DNA from: Cloacibacterium normanense
GTDB taxonomy: Bacteria; Bacteroidota; Bacteroidia; Flavobacteriales; Weeksellaceae
Direction of reading: 5' to 3'
Length of the DNA stretch: 64,000 bases
NCBI RefSeq assembly: GCF_003860565.1
Contig: NZ_CP034157.1
Coordinates: 1,612,001 to 1,676,000, forward strand
Shown: positions 5,886-61,433 of the stretch, piece after piece
Position numbering within the stretch: position 1 is the first letter of the stretch
How the letters are laid out: each line of letters starts with the position of its first letter
Program-made: the position numbers and the translations under genes
The notes under the pieces: generated by a model
What the model was told of the DNA's origin: nothing
What the model saw: only the letters and a program-made list of their open reading frames with translations
Database searches by the model: none

Positions 5886-6092
5886 TTAATCGAAATGTTG
5901 CGGGCCTGATTGGTCATTTTTACTTCTGTTGTAAATCATCATCCCGATGGTAAGTCCTACCATTCCGCCAAGTCCGTTTAGTAAAGCTCTTTGTAATTTG
6001 TCTGATTGTGTATTCCCAATGTAATTCATCAAAAACACGATGACGAACGTAATCACCAAAACCACTAAAAATTTCACACTTTTTAATTCCAT
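5886..6092 (-). CDS. Small two-helix membrane protein, unknown function
   Basis: The protein has 68 residues and two hydrophobic segments (about 7-25 and 37-55) followed by a charged, polar tail. It starts 1 base after the stop of the upstream 6094-6660 gene on the same strand, so it is probably translationally linked to it. No family was recognised. Confidence 0.6.
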   Translation of the reverse strand: MELKSVKFLVVLVITFVIVFLMNYIGNTQSDKLQRALLNGLGGMVGLTIGMMIYNRSKNDQSGPQHFD

Positions 6093-51932: not shown

Positions 51933-52106
51933 AAATATACAAAATGGAAATATAAAATACTAATCACTAATAAATTATTCATTTATTAATAATTATAAGT
52001 ATTTAATTGTATATAATTTTGAGTATATGTTAATTAGTTTCTAACAAATTTAATGAAAATAAATGATATGATTGGAAAGTCACGGATTAGAAAACCCGCC
52101 ATCGGG
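51933..52106 (-). repeat. Dispersed intergenic repeat copy
   Basis: AT-rich body with TTAATAATTATAAGTATTTAA and TTAGTTTCTAACAAATTTAA, ending GTCACGGATTAGAAAACC-CGCCATCGGG, 15 bases before the 52122 stop. It is the same family as at 13-21 kb. Confidence 0.8.
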
Positions 52107-52121
52107 ACTTATTTATGATTT

Positions 52122-52634
52122 TCAATCACAATTCCAATATGCTGTCTCTGCTTCATCACCAGGACCAAAAACACCCAACCATGGATTATCATCTGTATAG
52201 TTATCCCATTCTCTAGAGCTATAATTTAGTTTATGCTCATGATTTTCATCTGTAAAATCATATTCTTCGTCATTTGATTCAAATAAATATTCATTAGAAA
52301 AATCATCAGAAAACACTTCATCATTCATTAATTCATTTTCTGATCCATATTTGTATTTTAAATATTTATTCTGATTCTCTAGTTCATATAGTTTGTATTT
52401 CCTTTCATTAATTAAATTCTGTATTTCAATGTCATCTGATAGTAAATTTTGTAATCTGTTAATTTCATTATTTAAAAATACTTTCTTTTCTTTAAATAAT
52501 TCAAATTTTTCTCGCTCTATTTTTATTTTAATATCATAATATTCATTAAGAGTTAGAGCTATATTATGATTTGAAATAAAATCAGATTTTTCTGTAATTA
52601 TATATTTTTCAAATTCCCTCACAATAGAATTCAT
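52122..52634 (-). CDS. Coiled-coil hypothetical protein (C-terminal part of a split gene)
   Basis: The protein has 170 residues: a helical, Lys/Glu-rich first 100 residues (coiled coil), then an acidic tail ending WLGVFGPGDEAETAYWNC. The upstream 52641-52760 ORF lies in the same frame, separated by one TAA, and reads straight into this one. The original protein therefore probably had an N-terminal IF2_N-type domain. Function unknown. Confidence 0.55.
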   Translation of the reverse strand: MNSIVREFEKYIITEKSDFISNHNIALTLNEYYDIKIKIEREKFELFKEKKVFLNNEINRLQNLLSDDIEIQNLINERKYKLYELENQNKYLKYKYGSENELMNDEVFSDDFSNEYLFESNDEEYDFTDENHEHKLNYSSREWDNYTDDNPWLGVFGPGDEAETAYWNCD

Positions 52635-52769: not shown

Positions 52770-52949
52770 ATTACAGATAAAACAAAATTATACCTGGACA
52801 TAATATAGAAACATTAAACCATTATTTATTATGATTTATTAGTTTATAGTACTATTTAGAGTTTCTAATTATTATTATCTAACAAATTTAATCAAAATAA
52901 ATGATAAGAGTTACGGAAAGGTATGGATTAGAAAACCACTACCACGGGG
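52770..52949 (-). repeat. Dispersed intergenic repeat copy, diverged
   Basis: It contains ATCTAACAAATTTAATCAAA and ends GGTATGGATTAGAAAACCAC-TACCACGGGGG. It separates the IF2_N-type gene from the three-gene operon 52997-57101. Confidence 0.7.
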
Positions 52950-52996: not shown

Positions 52997-54811
52997 TTAT
53001 AATTTTTCAGAATAAAATTTATGTACACAATGTAAATTATCGTACATTATAAAGCACTTTTCTTTATAATCATCTCCATAAGGGCATTTCTCAATTCTAA
53101 GCTGTTTTATAGTATAAAATTCAATATTATTAACTATTTCATCACCGATTTTGTCTTTTTCTTCTAAGTTGTCAAAATTTAGTATGTTAATATTTACATC
53201 TTTATGACCAGTGTAAAATAATGATACAACAATTATTTTTTCAACCCTCTCGAAAAACTTTTTTTCTCTAGTTTCTTTACCCACTAATTTTCTAATAGTT
53301 CTACCATCGTTTACAACGTCTGTAATTAATAAAACTTGTCTATATTTACCTTTGGAATTATCAAAATTTAGTTTGTTTTCAAAATCATTATGGTCTTCCC
53401 ACCTATATGAATATGGAAGGTAGGTATAGGGAATAGAATATTTTATTGATGTTTTACTAGATATAATATTACCTTCGTATCCTAAACCGATTATTAAATC
53501 TGTATTTTTAACTAAATTCATTTTCTCTAAGACATCAATTATCGAATTTTTGATGAAATACAAATCTTCCTTATTCTCTAAAAGCTTTGCTGTATCAATC
53601 CAATTATGAGCACGCGAAGTTTCACTCCAATGAAAATGACCTTGATGGAATAATTTTTTTTCCTTGATAATATTGTATAGTTTATTTTGAATATCCTTGT
53701 TTTCATATTTTACAAGAGCTGTACTTTTCTGATAAACTAAGTTAGAAACAGTAGTTTCAATTTCATCATTTTCAGGAAGCTGGTCAATGGGGTTTACAGA
53801 AATAAGATTTTCCAATTTTCGAAATTCAAATGAATTTTTTTCTAAGCCTTTTATTTCTTCAGAATTAATTTTAATCCAATTTCCGAAATTTGATTCAGTA
53901 TTACCATTTACTTTATGCAATACATAAATATTATTTAATAATGATAAACAATTATTAGAATCAATAATTTCATAAATTTTGAAAGAAGCATCAATAGAGT
54001 TTTTACTACTAAATACACCACTATCACTTATTATAATACCTTCTCTATTTGCAAGATTTTTAGAATTATGTGTATGCTCATTACCATTTAAGATACATTT
54101 AATATTGAATCTTTCAAAAAGAGCAATTAGATCCTTTTTATTTTCTTTTTCCCACTGTCCAAAATGGGAATCTTCATGCTCTCCTTCAAGATTGTGATGA
54201 AAACATAATATTAATTCTTCGTAAGGAAAAGTTTTTTTGATTTCTTTTAATTCTTCCTCTAAAATATCTATTGGTATATAACCATGGCCACCATTTTGAT
54301 TAACTTTATAATTTGAATTGAGAGCTAACAAAACGATATTCCCAATAGTAATAGTGTCAAAAATTATTTTGTCAAATTCAAAATCTATTTTTTTAAATTT
54401 TTTGTAAAAATTATTAAAATTTTTAAATTTTATTTTATTTAAAAATTCAAGTGAATCTGTAGCATTATCTTTTCTAAGTTCTTCTTTTATAGAATCTCTA
54501 TGAGCATCATGATCACCAGGAATTAATAATAATCTATCAGAATCAATTTCTAACTCTGTTAATATATGAGAGATAATTCTTTCTCCTTCTTCAAATTCAA
54601 TTTGTTCAGCAATATTGGTAATGTCTCCTGTAATGACTAAATATTTATTTCTACATGTATAAGCTTTTATTTTATCGAGAAATTGATTAATAAAACTTAA
54701 ATTTTGAGTGCTAGGATTACAAGTCAAATATGTATCTGAATTTGCATATCCAAATGTCCTACTTTGATCAGAAATATGTAAATCAGAAATATGTATAATT
54801 ATATCATTCAT
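52997..54811 (-). CDS. Metallophosphoesterase fused to phosphoribosyltransferase-like domain
   Basis: The protein has 604 residues. The N-terminal calcineurin-like phosphoesterase (1-270) has all metal motifs: D10/H12 in ISDLHIS, GD at 62-63, GDHD at 99-102, HH at 205-206, and GNEHTH at 243-248. The C-terminal part (about 385-600) is PRTase-like: LIIGLGYEGNII and the PRPP loop VLLITDVVNDGRTI (493-506). It could hydrolyse a phosphodiester or phosphate and handle a ribosyl-phosphate ligand. It overlaps the 54804 gene by 8 bases; last gene of the operon. Confidence 0.82.
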   Translation of the reverse strand: MNDIIIHISDLHISDQSRTFGYANSDTYLTCNPSTQNLSFINQFLDKIKAYTCRNKYLVITGDITNIAEQIEFEEGERIISHILTELEIDSDRLLLIPGDHDAHRDSIKEELRKDNATDSLEFLNKIKFKNFNNFYKKFKKIDFEFDKIIFDTITIGNIVLLALNSNYKVNQNGGHGYIPIDILEEELKEIKKTFPYEELILCFHHNLEGEHEDSHFGQWEKENKKDLIALFERFNIKCILNGNEHTHNSKNLANREGIIISDSGVFSSKNSIDASFKIYEIIDSNNCLSLLNNIYVLHKVNGNTESNFGNWIKINSEEIKGLEKNSFEFRKLENLISVNPIDQLPENDEIETTVSNLVYQKSTALVKYENKDIQNKLYNIIKEKKLFHQGHFHWSETSRAHNWIDTAKLLENKEDLYFIKNSIIDVLEKMNLVKNTDLIIGLGYEGNIISSKTSIKYSIPYTYLPYSYRWEDHNDFENKLNFDNSKGKYRQVLLITDVVNDGRTIRKLVGKETREKKFFERVEKIIVVSLFYTGHKDVNINILNFDNLEEKDKIGDEIVNNIEFYTIKQLRIEKCPYGDDYKEKCFIMYDNLHCVHKFYSEKL

Positions 54812-55901
54812 TATCTTCTTTTTTAGACTTTAAATTAGTAGATATATAATATCCTAATTCTTCATTATTGTCTCTATCAATAGAAAAAATGGCAATTGTC
54901 GCATCTCTTCTATTAATGTCTTTCTTTTTTAAAGTTTCTGTTTTAATAAGTGAAACGTTTCCTAAATATTTTCCTCCTAAGAATTCGATTATATTCTTTA
55001 CAATTTTAACTTCTGTACCTAAACAAACTAAATCGGAAACGACAATATAATTTCTATTTTCTATAATATTCTTATTTAATGAATTATAAATACGATTTAT
55101 CGGGCCAATTTTATCAAGAATTAAAATGTCCAGTTTCAAAAGATTCGACAATATTGAAGTGATATATGAACTATTTAAGCTCTGACAAACCAAAATTGGA
55201 GGATTATATTCTTGCAAATTACCTTCACCATAAAAAGGAATAGGCCCATTTTCTCTCCATTCTTTAAGTATTTTTAGAGACAATTTATAAATTGAGTAGA
55301 TACAAAGAGCTTTCTGTTCAGAGATAAATTTCTTAATATTAATATATGAATCTAAATAAACATAAGACGATGTATGAGGTTCACCATGTTTTTCTATATA
55401 AGGTTTTAATTCTTTAATAAACTCTTTTTCAAACAATCCATCTATTTTAAAACCATCCTCAAAAAAATTAATTGACGAATCCTCAAAAAGATAAAATTTT
55501 TTGAAACCAGTCTTTTTTCGAGGTTTTAAAGTTCCCTTATCAAAGAACAAAATATCTGTTCTAACATTATTTGAATTATTCATTGAATCAAATCCAAATT
55601 TCACAATCAATTCTTCTGTGATGTTTAATAACGCAATTTTAAACCCTTCCTTTTTAAGTTGAGTAAAGTATCTGTTTATGTTAGGTTGTTCTCCTTCAAT
55701 GTGCTTTAAGTCAAATGCTATATTCAACTGAACCTTACCACTCTTTTCAATATCATCAATGACTCTCTCAATTGTTATGGATTGTAATCTATCACAAAAT
55801 ATACCATTATTATTCTCTTCAATGAAATTTGATGTAATAACTTCTTCACTATGTAAATTATAATAAATGAAGTTTTCTGCATTTAATTTTGAAATTATCA
55901 T
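54804..55901 (-). CDS. STAS-like/phosphoribosyltransferase-like protein
   Basis: The protein has 365 residues. Residues 40-105 (SITIERVIDDIEKSGKVQLN, IAFDLKHI, FKIALLNITEEL) alternate beta/alpha as in STAS domains. Residues 230-320 resemble a PRTase, with the loop YIVVSDLVCLGTEVKIV (285-301) in place of the usual D-D-x-x-x-T-G; the altered acidic pair suggests ligand binding more than catalysis. It overlaps its downstream partner by 8 bases and lies 6 bases after the GHKL gene. Confidence 0.65.
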   Translation of the reverse strand: MIISKLNAENFIYYNLHSEEVITSNFIEENNNGIFCDRLQSITIERVIDDIEKSGKVQLNIAFDLKHIEGEQPNINRYFTQLKKEGFKIALLNITEELIVKFGFDSMNNSNNVRTDILFFDKGTLKPRKKTGFKKFYLFEDSSINFFEDGFKIDGLFEKEFIKELKPYIEKHGEPHTSSYVYLDSYINIKKFISEQKALCIYSIYKLSLKILKEWRENGPIPFYGEGNLQEYNPPILVCQSLNSSYITSILSNLLKLDILILDKIGPINRIYNSLNKNIIENRNYIVVSDLVCLGTEVKIVKNIIEFLGGKYLGNVSLIKTETLKKKDINRRDATIAIFSIDRDNNEELGYYISTNLKSKKEDNE

Positions 55902-55907
55902 AGTTTA

Positions 55908-57101
55908 CTAGTTTGGAATTTCAACTTCAATGTGAACTCCTTTAAATTTTACGTTGTAAAATCTAATAGATGAGAATTTAGTTTCTTCGGAGTAATACTT
56001 AACTATTGCTTTAATTACCTTTACAAAATGCTCTGTTAATATACTTTTAGAATTCAATATTGTTTTTTCATATTCACTTTTTGTGAGTTTACCTAATTCA
56101 TATAAATTGTGTATTTCCAATATTTTATCACGTAGTTCATTTAGAGAAGTTATGTATTTGAAAATTCTATTAGATATAATTATTTGACAATTATTTGTGT
56201 GTAACCTAAAGTATCCATTACTCTTAAGTACCACATTTAACATCAAATCAAATAGTCCTTTTCTTTCCTTTAATGAAGAAAAATATAGAATTTCAAAAAT
56301 TTCTATTAAATTTTCAACAAAATACTTATTTAAGGTACTATTTAATTCTAACTTAATAGAATTTTCAAGCTCATTTTTTTCATAATAAAAAGGGAAATTT
56401 TGTTTTTTCGATAAAGAATTTTTAAATCCAATACCATTATCAGAAATTGAGAATTTCGTCTGATATTTATCTACAAACATCATGGCATATGTTGTAGATT
56501 GAGAATGTATTACACCATTAGTAATTAATTCTGAAAGTATATTAATATATTCATTGTGATTTTTGACTGTATTTTCATTATCGTATAATAGGTCATGAAA
56601 ATGAGTTTGTACATTGTAAGATACAATTGAATTTACTTTATCTCTTAGTAAAATTTCATTTGATTGTTTAAAATCTATATTAGGAAAATCCTTTTTCCTA
56701 TAAGCTCTAATTATATGTTCTTTACGTATTTCGTTTCCTAGAAATGCACCAAGATAATTTGAATTATAAATAAGAATATCATTTTCTTTTGCTATTCTAA
56801 AAAATCCCTCTAGATATAAAAATTCTAAAACTTTAATTGTAGCATGATTATTATTCAAATAAAGCTCTAAAGGTTTCTTATGGAATTTACTTAATTGCTC
56901 TATTATACTTAGTAATAAAGGGGTTGATATTGGATCAATTCTGTAAGTTGAATTAAAAATATCAGTATCTCCTTTCTGAAAAAGTAGAAACTTAATCTCA
57001 TCGGTCTTATTACCCCTATAGAATTCAGCTAATTTTGGTAAAAATTCAGTATAAAAAACTAAAGGTGTGAAATTAACTCCATCGTCTAAAATTGGTATCA
57101 T
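55908..57101 (-). CDS. GHKL (HATPase) protein with N-terminal STAS-like region
   Basis: The protein has 397 residues. The ATP-binding Bergerat fold shows the N-box SELITNGVIHS (E191, N195) and G1 box SISDNGIGF (D221, G223, G225), followed by a long helical insert and a C-terminal beta strand (FKGVHIEVEI). Residues 55-112 look STAS-like. The pairing of HATPase and STAS recalls anti-sigma/anti-anti-sigma switches, but a His-phosphoacceptor domain is absent. First gene of the three-gene operon; a repeat copy precedes it. Confidence 0.75.
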   Translation of the reverse strand: MIPILDDGVNFTPLVFYTEFLPKLAEFYRGNKTDEIKFLLFQKGDTDIFNSTYRIDPISTPLLLSIIEQLSKFHKKPLELYLNNNHATIKVLEFLYLEGFFRIAKENDILIYNSNYLGAFLGNEIRKEHIIRAYRKKDFPNIDFKQSNEILLRDKVNSIVSYNVQTHFHDLLYDNENTVKNHNEYINILSELITNGVIHSQSTTYAMMFVDKYQTKFSISDNGIGFKNSLSKKQNFPFYYEKNELENSIKLELNSTLNKYFVENLIEIFEILYFSSLKERKGLFDLMLNVVLKSNGYFRLHTNNCQIIISNRIFKYITSLNELRDKILEIHNLYELGKLTKSEYEKTILNSKSILTEHFVKVIKAIVKYYSEETKFSSIRFYNVKFKGVHIEVEIPN

Positions 57102-57112
57102 TGATTCTATAT

Positions 57113-57275
57113 AACTGATTTTTAATAATCGAACATAACACTCAAATTAACAAATTACATTTATAATACTGTATAATCAATTAAATATTTGCTTGTCAGT
57201 GATTGTGAGCATTTGTTTGAGTTCGGTATTTGAGTTTATGTTTATTAGTTTAAAACAAATTTAATTAAAAAAAAT
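57113..57275 (-). repeat. Dispersed intergenic repeat, truncated right end
   Basis: It starts TAATCGAACATAACACTCAA, then TGTATAATCAATTAAATATT and GTTTATTAGTTTAAAACAAA; the CGGATT/CATCGG box is missing, replaced by AT-rich DNA before the 57331 terminator. It marks the upstream limit of the operon 52997-57101. Confidence 0.7.
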
Positions 57276-57328
57276 TAAACTCTAAAGGCTAATGTTTTAA
57301 TTCTGAATTAAATCGAATTAAATTCAAA

Positions 57329-59741: not shown

Positions 59742-61433
59742 TTAATTTTTCAAACCAAACTTATAATAATCATCTGGAAGTGCTTTTTCATTAAATTTTA
59801 ATTTGCCTAACCAATAAAGTTTATCAAAATCACCTTGTTCATATGGAGAAAAGGTTAAATGGATATCTTCAGCTTCAGCTAATTTTTTAAAGTTGGATGG
59901 ATTTTGTAAATAGCAAGCACAAACATCAAGTTCATCAATCGAATACATTCTATCGTGCATTTGTCTTCTACAATCTAAAAAGTCAAAAAAATTATTGATA
60001 TGATTTTTCGATTTTAATTGTAACGTTTTTAAAAATACTTCTAAATCATCAATATAAACCGACCAAGGATAATCTATATCGTCTTCCTTCTCTAACAATA
60101 AACCTAAATCAGTTTGTATACAGCCAAATCTTTCTAATGTTACAACAATTGAAAATACATTATTGATTTCAGAAGGATTAATAGCTTGTAGTACTTTTTT
60201 ACGATAATTTTTCAAATGAAAAACTTCATCAGAATAAAAGAAATCCTCTACTCTTTTACATTGATCAAAGCCATATTGAATAGAATTTTCAAAATCTGAT
60301 TTCAATCTGTCAATAGCCTTATCTACGTCCCTAAAAGGCTCACGTAGTTTTGAAGCTTTAACTTCTATAATAATAGCATTTCCCTTATATATGATTAAAA
60401 AATCTTGCTCGTAATTATCAATTACATAATAATTCTCAAAAAAATTGGAATGTTTACTGGCAAAGAAAGATTTAAACATGTCACTAACCTTATTTTCTAA
60501 AGTTTTTTCTCTGTGCTTCCTTAATTTAACATTGGTATTATTATCATTAAATAGATGTGTATAAAGAATTTTATAAATAGCAATAGGTAATTGTTTACCA
60601 TATAAGCTTAAATAATTACCATTAGAAAGTTTCAAAAACGGTGTCTTTTCAAATATACTTTCAGCAGTATAATATCTTATAGAATTGTCAGATACTGGCA
60701 CTATTGAAACTAATTTTAGAAGTTTATCAACTTTTTCAGCATCAAGCCTATGATACAAATCAGATGCTGAAAATATTAAATATGCATATGTTTTATAATT
60801 AAATGAATCTAATGCATCTTGAATTTTCTTTGGCATTAAATCATATGAAGCAGAGACACTCATTTTGCCACCTTGAATTCTATCATTAAAATCTGCAAAT
60901 TCTTTAGTAAACATAAACTCCATAGTTTGCTTCCCACGAATTAAAGAAATTAATTCAATCTCTTTACAAGCTTCAATAAGAAAATCAATATCAAACCCAA
61001 AATCTGAAGTTATCTTTTCATCAAAAGGAGAAAACACCCTTCTTAATTTCTCTAAATCCTGTTCAACATAGCTTAGCACACCATTATCAAAATGATTCCT
61101 AACAGCCATTTCGTGAATTACGGATTCTTTAGTATAATTATTTAAATCTTGTGGGTAAATATTTTTTTTTATCTCATCAAGTTTATCTGCAATTAGATGT
61201 AATCCATCAAATGGAAACTCAAACTTTTCCTTTCCTTTTTTGTCAGAAAATGCATTCAATGAAATTAAGTATAGAAAATCTTTAAGTTTAGAACCAAATC
61301 TATTTATTCCTATATCAGCTGCAGGGTCAATATTTTTTTTAATAAAAAAAGCTAAAGATCCTGCAAAGCTTTCGGTATCATATTGAGATACTAAATCTTG
61401 AAGTTCGTTTATTTTGTTTTCAATATCCTTCAT
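59742..61433 (-). CDS. PD-(D/E)XK nuclease-like protein, partner of OLD gene
   Basis: The protein has 563 residues. The C-terminal part holds a restriction-endonuclease-like core: E313 in TLENKVSDMF, D344 in YEQDFLIIY, and E357/K359 in NAIIIEVKASKL. The N-terminal 300 residues are helical and unassigned. It lies 99 bases downstream of the OLD-family gene on the same strand and is likely expressed with it. Its nuclease role is inferred from the motif. Confidence 0.7.
   Translation of the reverse strand: MKDIENKINELQDLVSQYDTESFAGSLAFFIKKNIDPAADIGINRFGSKLKDFLYLISLNAFSDKKGKEKFEFPFDGLHLIADKLDEIKKNIYPQDLNNYTKESVIHEMAVRNHFDNGVLSYVEQDLEKLRRVFSPFDEKITSDFGFDIDFLIEACKEIELISLIRGKQTMEFMFTKEFADFNDRIQGGKMSVSASYDLMPKKIQDALDSFNYKTYAYLIFSASDLYHRLDAEKVDKLLKLVSIVPVSDNSIRYYTAESIFEKTPFLKLSNGNYLSLYGKQLPIAIYKILYTHLFNDNNTNVKLRKHREKTLENKVSDMFKSFFASKHSNFFENYYVIDNYEQDFLIIYKGNAIIIEVKASKLREPFRDVDKAIDRLKSDFENSIQYGFDQCKRVEDFFYSDEVFHLKNYRKKVLQAINPSEINNVFSIVVTLERFGCIQTDLGLLLEKEDDIDYPWSVYIDDLEVFLKTLQLKSKNHINNFFDFLDCRRQMHDRMYSIDELDVCACYLQNPSNFKKLAEAEDIHLTFSPYEQGDFDKLYWLGKLKFNEKALPDDYYKFGLKN

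Follow-up and report, generated by a model that had tools for sequence, protein, structure and literature searches.

A 64,000-nucleotide stretch of the Cloacibacterium normanense genome (contig NZ_CP034157.1, positions 1,612,001 to 1,676,000), referred to here as the window, contains a compact minus-strand operon of three genes, encoding a predicted GHKL ATPase (gene 1), a protein with a predicted phosphoribosyltransferase (PRTase) fold (gene 2), and a predicted metallophosphatase fused to an orotate phosphoribosyltransferase (OPRT)-like domain (gene 3) (Table 1). Genes 1 and 2 are separated by 6 bases (55902 to 55907), and genes 2 and 3 overlap by 8 bases (54804 to 54811), in exact agreement with the coordinates (52997 to 57101), gap, and overlap given in an earlier note on this DNA. 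We regard the triplet, with fair confidence, as a candidate defense system.

Table 1. Genes, domains, and repeat copies at the triplet locus, in window coordinates
Feature	Position	Strand	Basis
Gene 1 (P0003), 397 amino acids	55908..57101	-	Open reading frame (ORF); N-terminal alpha/beta region and GHKL/Bergerat ATPase
Gene 2 (P0002), 365 amino acids	54804..55901	-	ORF; STAS-like region (suggestive) and PRTase-fold domain
STAS-like region of gene 2 (residues ~1-120)	55542..55901	-	Element order in model; SpoIIAA alignment
PRTase-fold domain of gene 2 (~157-354)	54840..55433	-	Foldseek, VIA-align, profile
Gene 3 (P0001), 604 amino acids	52997..54811	-	ORF; metallophosphatase and orotate-PRTase-like domain
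Metallophosphatase domain of gene 3 (~1-330)	53822..54811	-	Pfam, fold matches, NCBIfam
OPRT-like domain of gene 3 (~371-604)	53000..53701	-	GHFHWSETSRAHNWID start motif; pyrophosphate (PPi)-loop-like LGYEGN; phosphoribosyl pyrophosphate (PRPP) loop ITDVVNDGRT (D498)
Dispersed repeat copy, upstream operon edge	57227..57282	+	Repeat search
Dispersed repeat copy, downstream operon edge	52854..52937	+	Repeat search
Dispersed repeat copy, beyond 170-amino-acid ORF 52122-52634	52000..52115	+	Repeat search

All eight distinct loci found (window included) contain the three genes in one fixed order, separated by short gaps or overlapping by a few bases, and in the seven further loci all three proteins are 42 to 78% identical to those of the window. 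The ratio of nonsynonymous to synonymous substitutions (dN/dS) against the closest relative is 0.08 to 0.13, a rough value with synonymous sites near saturation. Because of these ratios and the conserved order in seven more loci, the three ORFs are considered real genes, and the operon is under purifying selection. A pattern scan with gene 3 over ~85,000 genomes yielded three relatives, in Chishuiella changwenlii (73% identity), Sphingobacterium endophyticum (65%), and Chryseobacterium arachidis (56%), and a gene 1 profile search of the family (148 genomes) brought four genomes beyond Chishuiella. The earlier note had asked whether homologs stand alone in housekeeping contexts; the triplet was complete in every locus found, none of these loci was a housekeeping setting, and no lone member appeared in samples of ~300 to 400 class and phylum genomes with each gene as query. 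In one locus (L054, 7113 to 8939), codon 527 of gene 3, within the PRTase domain, is an in-frame stop, with genes 1 and 2 open, which points either to an effector in decay or to an error in sequencing.

Gene 1 is predicted to consist of an N-terminal alpha/beta region (residues 1 to ~125) and a GHKL/Bergerat domain (~181 to 397). Its N box, SELITNGVIHS (E191 and N195), and its G1 box, SDNGIG (D221, G223, and G225; D221NGIG225), are invariant in the eight members, and its G2 box, KERKGLFDLM, is degenerate. The Pfam HATPase_c model was found in all eight members, with a best E value of 6e-5, and the top NCBIfam model was SpoIIAB (0.0048). Gene 1 is therefore predicted from its sequence to be a GHKL ATPase of the SpoIIAB/histidine kinase type, which bears out the Bergerat-fold assignment of the earlier note. 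The STAS-like region that the same note placed in gene 1 did not rise above chance, with 88 of 150 shuffles scoring equally well in a profile comparison. The weak phylum-wide gene 1 matches that were inspected turned out to be ordinary sensor histidine kinases, not relatives of the system.

In gene 2, Foldseek gave a best match of 5.7e-5 to the PRTase domain, the top 50 rows were all PRTase-fold proteins, including Bacillus subtilis PurR, and VIA-align gave a Z score of 9.1 on a structure model of moderate confidence (predicted local distance difference test score of 68). The profile of this domain also scored against OPRT above 150 of 150 shuffles. The PRPP loop is altered (VVSDLVCLGTE), with S-D in place of the acidic pair, and its SDLVCLGTE portion is invariant in the eight loci; conservation within the operon peaks at residues 234 to 330, with 75% mean identity. 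Because the loop is invariant and the conservation here is the highest in the operon, the domain is not a decaying pseudo-domain, and the model indicates that gene 2 carries a catalytically altered domain of the orotate/adenine-PRTase fold. Residues 1 to 120 show a STAS-like element order in the model and a co-linear alignment to SpoIIAA, with 143 of 150 shuffles scoring lower. Among the Foldseek rows listed for gene 2, which were occupied by PRTase-domain matches, there was no STAS fold. At the predicted start of STAS helix 2 (residues 71 to 78, a position inferred from the element order of the model), no conserved Ser or Thr was found among the eight members, in which P, D, S, N, and A occur. 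The two-part description of gene 2 in the earlier note consequently holds for the PRTase fold, which is backed by structure; the STAS-like region is borderline, its score being reached by 7 of 150 shuffles.

The front half of gene 3 matches Pfam Metallophos at 6.6e-6, over the cutoff, and contains the phosphatase motifs DLH/GD/GDHD/HH/GNEH, in which D10, H12, D63, D100, H101, H205, H206, N244, and H246 are invariant in the eight members. All positions of the calcineurin-like superfamily pattern (DxH, GD, GNH[DE], H, GHxH) are occupied, with two residues changed: GNH is GDH (Asn to Asp) and GHxH is GNEH (first His to Asn), both fixed in all eight. We take these two altered ligands to correspond to the second-metal site in Rv0805, and the matched change may suggest a different metal or substrate. 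The phosphatase model matched the folds of SMPDL3A, Lmo2642, GpdQ, and Rv0805 with Z scores of ~20, and the top fold match was B. subtilis YydB (PDB model 9a6c chain B, an integrative model), with a Z score of 25.5 over residues 1 to 338 and no match found at the sequence level. Searches of solved structures by sequence, with single proteins and four-row profiles, gave nothing usable for the three proteins, and an eight-row phosphatase profile matched Lmo2642 at 5.2e-14, the sole usable sequence-to-structure match. The best NCBIfam model was NF053862 (DS9_1_antiphage), at 4.8e-17 in the window and 1.5e-23 in genome G802, with DS-8 second in two relatives. Membership in DS-9 was rejected at 62 bits in the window and up to 83 in relatives, far under the equivalog cutoff of 420, as was the 53 bits for DS-8 under its cutoff of 790; by sequence, the gene 3 phosphatase appears to lie in the DS-8/DS-9 neighborhood without being a member. 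Elsewhere in the phylum, genus g203 encodes a metallophosphatase-NACHT protein (L018, 1 to 2118) that scores 128 bits, below the cutoff, with the DS8_antiphage model, and further long ORFs of this genus (1,174 to 1,591 amino acids) matched by the gene 3 phosphatase profile may be similar to it.

The back half of gene 3 was matched by Pfam Pribosyltran in seven of the eight family members (best 1.4e-6), and its assignment to the type I PRTase/OPRT fold is supported by the structure model (Foldseek, 1.6e-5; VIA-align Z score, 15.2) and by an hhalign comparison with the OPRT profile (93%; E value, 2.5e-7), whose score was reached by none of 60 shuffles. In addition, this half was matched by pyrE models, most strongly in a relative (1.8e-8), and a genuine PyrE reciprocally matched gene 3 at 1e-4. 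A weak phylum hit to the PRTase part was PyrE itself and serves as a control, not as a relative of the system. The PRPP loop, described in the earlier note as intact looking, is only partly canonical: D498 and T505 are retained, the first acidic residue is Thr or Ser in all eight (T/S497-D498), and NDG stands for TGG, with GAN in the L052 copy (VVNGANT). The flexible-loop KGHG motif of PyrE is absent. The motifs that the note had listed (the GHKL boxes, the phosphatase motifs, and ITDVVNDGRT) are all present, and the residues proposed for mutation, D221, D63, and D498, are invariant in the eight loci. As to whether structure prediction would find neither a PRTase nor a HATPase fold, a predicted PRTase fold was obtained in two of the proteins, and GHKL motifs are present in the third.

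The triplet is rare and moves horizontally. It is absent from all six other genomes of the genus and present in five others of the 148 in the family, and the host range of the eight loci is Weeksellaceae plus Sphingobacterium. The Sphingobacterium copy, from a different order, is 66 to 71% identical to that of the window, and several copies of the same family are less so (42 to 58%). The GC content of the operon is 24.8%, versus 31.4% for the window. Tyrosine integrases adjoin the operon in L007, L053, and L054. No relative was found in plasmid, phage, or viral-contig searches, and carriage by known plasmids or phages was not seen.

In the window, the operon has SIR2-HerA on one side, identified by PADLOC, and an OLD-type gene on the other, identified by PADLOC and Pfam AAA_15, both of which the earlier note had recognized. 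The C. arachidis locus (L008) has Gabija GajA/GajB within ~9 kb of the operon; in G802, genes for an LmuA-like nuclease and a DUF4365 protein directly precede the operon, and a retron-type reverse transcriptase lies farther on; and G804 has TIR and DUF4365 genes downstream. The neighborhood search proposed in the note thus gave an intact triplet in all eight loci and close, recognizable defense genes in four, with an integrase in three of the remaining four. Several further genes were observed beside these systems. Directly downstream of the OLD-type gene of the window, on the same strand, a 563-amino-acid ORF (59742 to 61433) without a Pfam or NCBIfam match is possibly the partner in a two-gene OLD-like system. 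A PDC-S32-type gene lies 10 bases downstream of the operon in L008 (11883 to 13361) and a RES-domain gene lies 2 bases downstream in G802 (L052, 12479 to 13561), as if extra effectors had been added to the operon end.

A dispersed repeat of ~80 to 110 bases borders the operon on both sides, as the earlier note had stated, with ~14 copies in the genome, three of them around the operon (at 52.0, 52.85, and 57.2 kb). Copies also lie at 1274 to 1275 kb and 1291 kb of the genome, and every copy is on the plus strand. Between 12560 and 21000 of the window, the repeat alternates with minus-strand ORFs at ~1-kb spacing (14 to 21 kb), and many of the ORFs between repeats have signal peptide or lipoprotein starts. 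The arrangement looks like a gene-cassette-like array, in which the triplet and ORF 52122-52634 would each be one cassette. No classic IntI integrase scored over the cutoff in the genome; TIGR02249 matches were below it, likewise in 14 of 14 control genomes. Another genus has a comparable cassette-like array: upstream of the operon in Chishuiella (L051, 5300 to 12300), small co-oriented lipoprotein-like ORFs are separated by a different repeat, which is ~100 bases long and contains a terminator-like stem (D1 copies at 5991, 7725, 8520, and 11639).

None of the three proteins matched a PADLOC-DB 2.0 model at an E value of 0.1, and PADLOC, Pfam, NCBIfam, and the literature searched, including the YydB and ABC-3C topics, yielded no system built in this way, so the statement that no described system has this exact architecture stands within these sources. 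The novelty lies in the combination, since the effector class (DS-8/DS-9) and the kinase-substrate-effector order (VapKSC) are already known. DS-8 and DS-9 are validated antiphage metallophosphatases, with SMPDL3A named as a fold relative of DS-8, which is supposed to attack a nucleotide-type substrate (PMC13092281). Gene 3 shares with them a metallophosphatase of the SMPDL3A-like group, and DS9 is its best family model; whereas the partner of DS-9 is a HAD phosphatase and DS-8 is fused to NACHT, the partners of gene 3 are GHKL and PRTase proteins in all eight loci. The C terminus of gene 3 has the fold and start motif of PyrE, and gene 2 belongs to the same fold group; unlike PyrE, gene 3 is fused to a phosphatase, has a changed PRPP acidic pair and KGHG motif, and lies outside pyrimidine operons. 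Gene 2 can also be likened to B. subtilis PurR, in which the PRTase fold serves as a ligand-binding regulator. The intact PRPP loop and the DNA-binding domain of PurR are both lacking in gene 2.

Motifs, folds, and neighbors support the earlier note in part, namely in its reading of the ATPase as a switch-type protein that is combined, in a mobile defense setting, with a phosphatase/PRTase effector. Our best overall explanation, which we put forward tentatively and which could well be wrong in its details, is a mobile antiphage operon, probably abortive, with a PRTase-held phosphatase and a GHKL switch. Gene 3 would be the effector, its DS-8/DS-9-like metallophosphatase hydrolyzing a phosphoester or phosphodiester, most likely a nucleotide or a nucleotide signal. 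It would be restrained via its OPRT-like domain, paired with the altered OPRT-like domain of gene 2, a pairing proposed because type I PRTases are usually dimeric and normally act as such. Gene 1 would be the ATP-driven switch, acting on gene 2 upon sensed infection or damage and using ATP to break or reshape the gene 2/gene 3 pair, by which gene 3 would be freed or activated. Several points weigh against this explanation. The heterodimer is a conjecture, and the gene 3 profile did not score above shuffles against the gene 2 profile (13 of 150), so the kinship of the two PRTase domains rests on their common fold. The DS-9 match is unspecific, in that the same model gives 57 to 72 bits with three further metallophosphatases from the phylum, and the figures for defense neighbors are raw counts from only eight loci. 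A variant that we consider unlikely has the altered PRTase of gene 2 and the PRTase-tethered phosphatase of gene 3 form a GHKL-gated sensor-effector for PRPP or nucleotides, with phage-disturbed nucleotide pools, rather than a phage protein, as the trigger; it would amount to a new class of immunity gated by nucleotides.

A close described parallel is VapKSC, whose GHKL kinase frees a PIN toxin by phosphorylating the STAS antitoxin and which protects against a phage; in CapS and VapS, the STAS phospho-Ser/Thr position is absolutely conserved (PMC13373217). The kinases of VapKSC and CapKS are activated by single-stranded DNA. VapKSC and CapK-CapS resemble the triplet in the order of GHKL protein, regulator, and effector, in the SpoIIAB-type GHKL domain, and in the defense context, and they differ in the effector, which in VapKSC is a PIN RNase and in the triplet a phosphatase-PRTase (Metallophos and Pribosyltran). 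A true phosphoswitch of this kind, with a DNA damage-activated STAS-GHKL kinase, a STAS antitoxin in gene 2, and a gene 3 toxin freed by serine phosphorylation, would account for the shared gene order and setting, the top SpoIIAB model of gene 1, and the SpoIIAA-like N terminus of gene 2. We find it quite unlikely, in view of the lack of a conserved Ser or Thr at residues 71 to 78 of gene 2, the unsupported STAS region in gene 1, and the borderline one in gene 2. The middle protein, unlike VapS and CapS, carries a PRTase domain, and since the phosphoserine position is not conserved, the triplet is not filed under VapKSC. A kinase activity of gene 1, if present, would act at another site, because the canonical phosphoserine is missing from gene 2. 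It is also unlikely that gene 3, perhaps with gene 2, is a working PRTase that uses PRPP to form or cleave a nucleotide, the phosphatase acting on the product and the nucleotide made or depleted stopping the phage. The OPRT-like fold, the start motif, LGYEGN loop, and D498 conserved in all eight loci, the fusion of phosphatase and PRTase in one chain, and the high conservation of the gene 2 PRTase region (234 to 330) favor such an activity, to which the altered acidic pairs of genes 3 (T/S-D) and 2 (S-D), the NDG or, in L052, GAN for TGG, and the absent KGHG motif are opposed.

The mobile, low-GC, repeat-flanked setting and the effector-plus-control layout would also suit a selfish toxin-antitoxin module on mobile cassettes, with phage protection incidental, a reading made improbable by the repeated position beside unrelated defense systems and by an effector class already validated in defense. 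Regulatory PRTase folds exist, such as that of PurR, which gene 2 matched in fold, so that a metabolic regulator of the PurR/PyrR kind, controlling nucleotide supply and not serving defense, can be conceived; its absence from nearly all genomes, including all six of the genus, its horizontal spread, and its defense and integrase neighbors render this very improbable.

The triplet would place a phosphatase of the DS-8/DS-9 neighborhood under a small, cleanly dissectable control pair. Its PRTase folds point to PRPP or nucleotides as the ligand or substrate, and the eight natural variants, including one with a further altered PRPP loop and one with an in-frame stop in the effector, are available for comparison. 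With the triplet, the GHKL-switch logic known from VapKSC would reach a further class of effectors.

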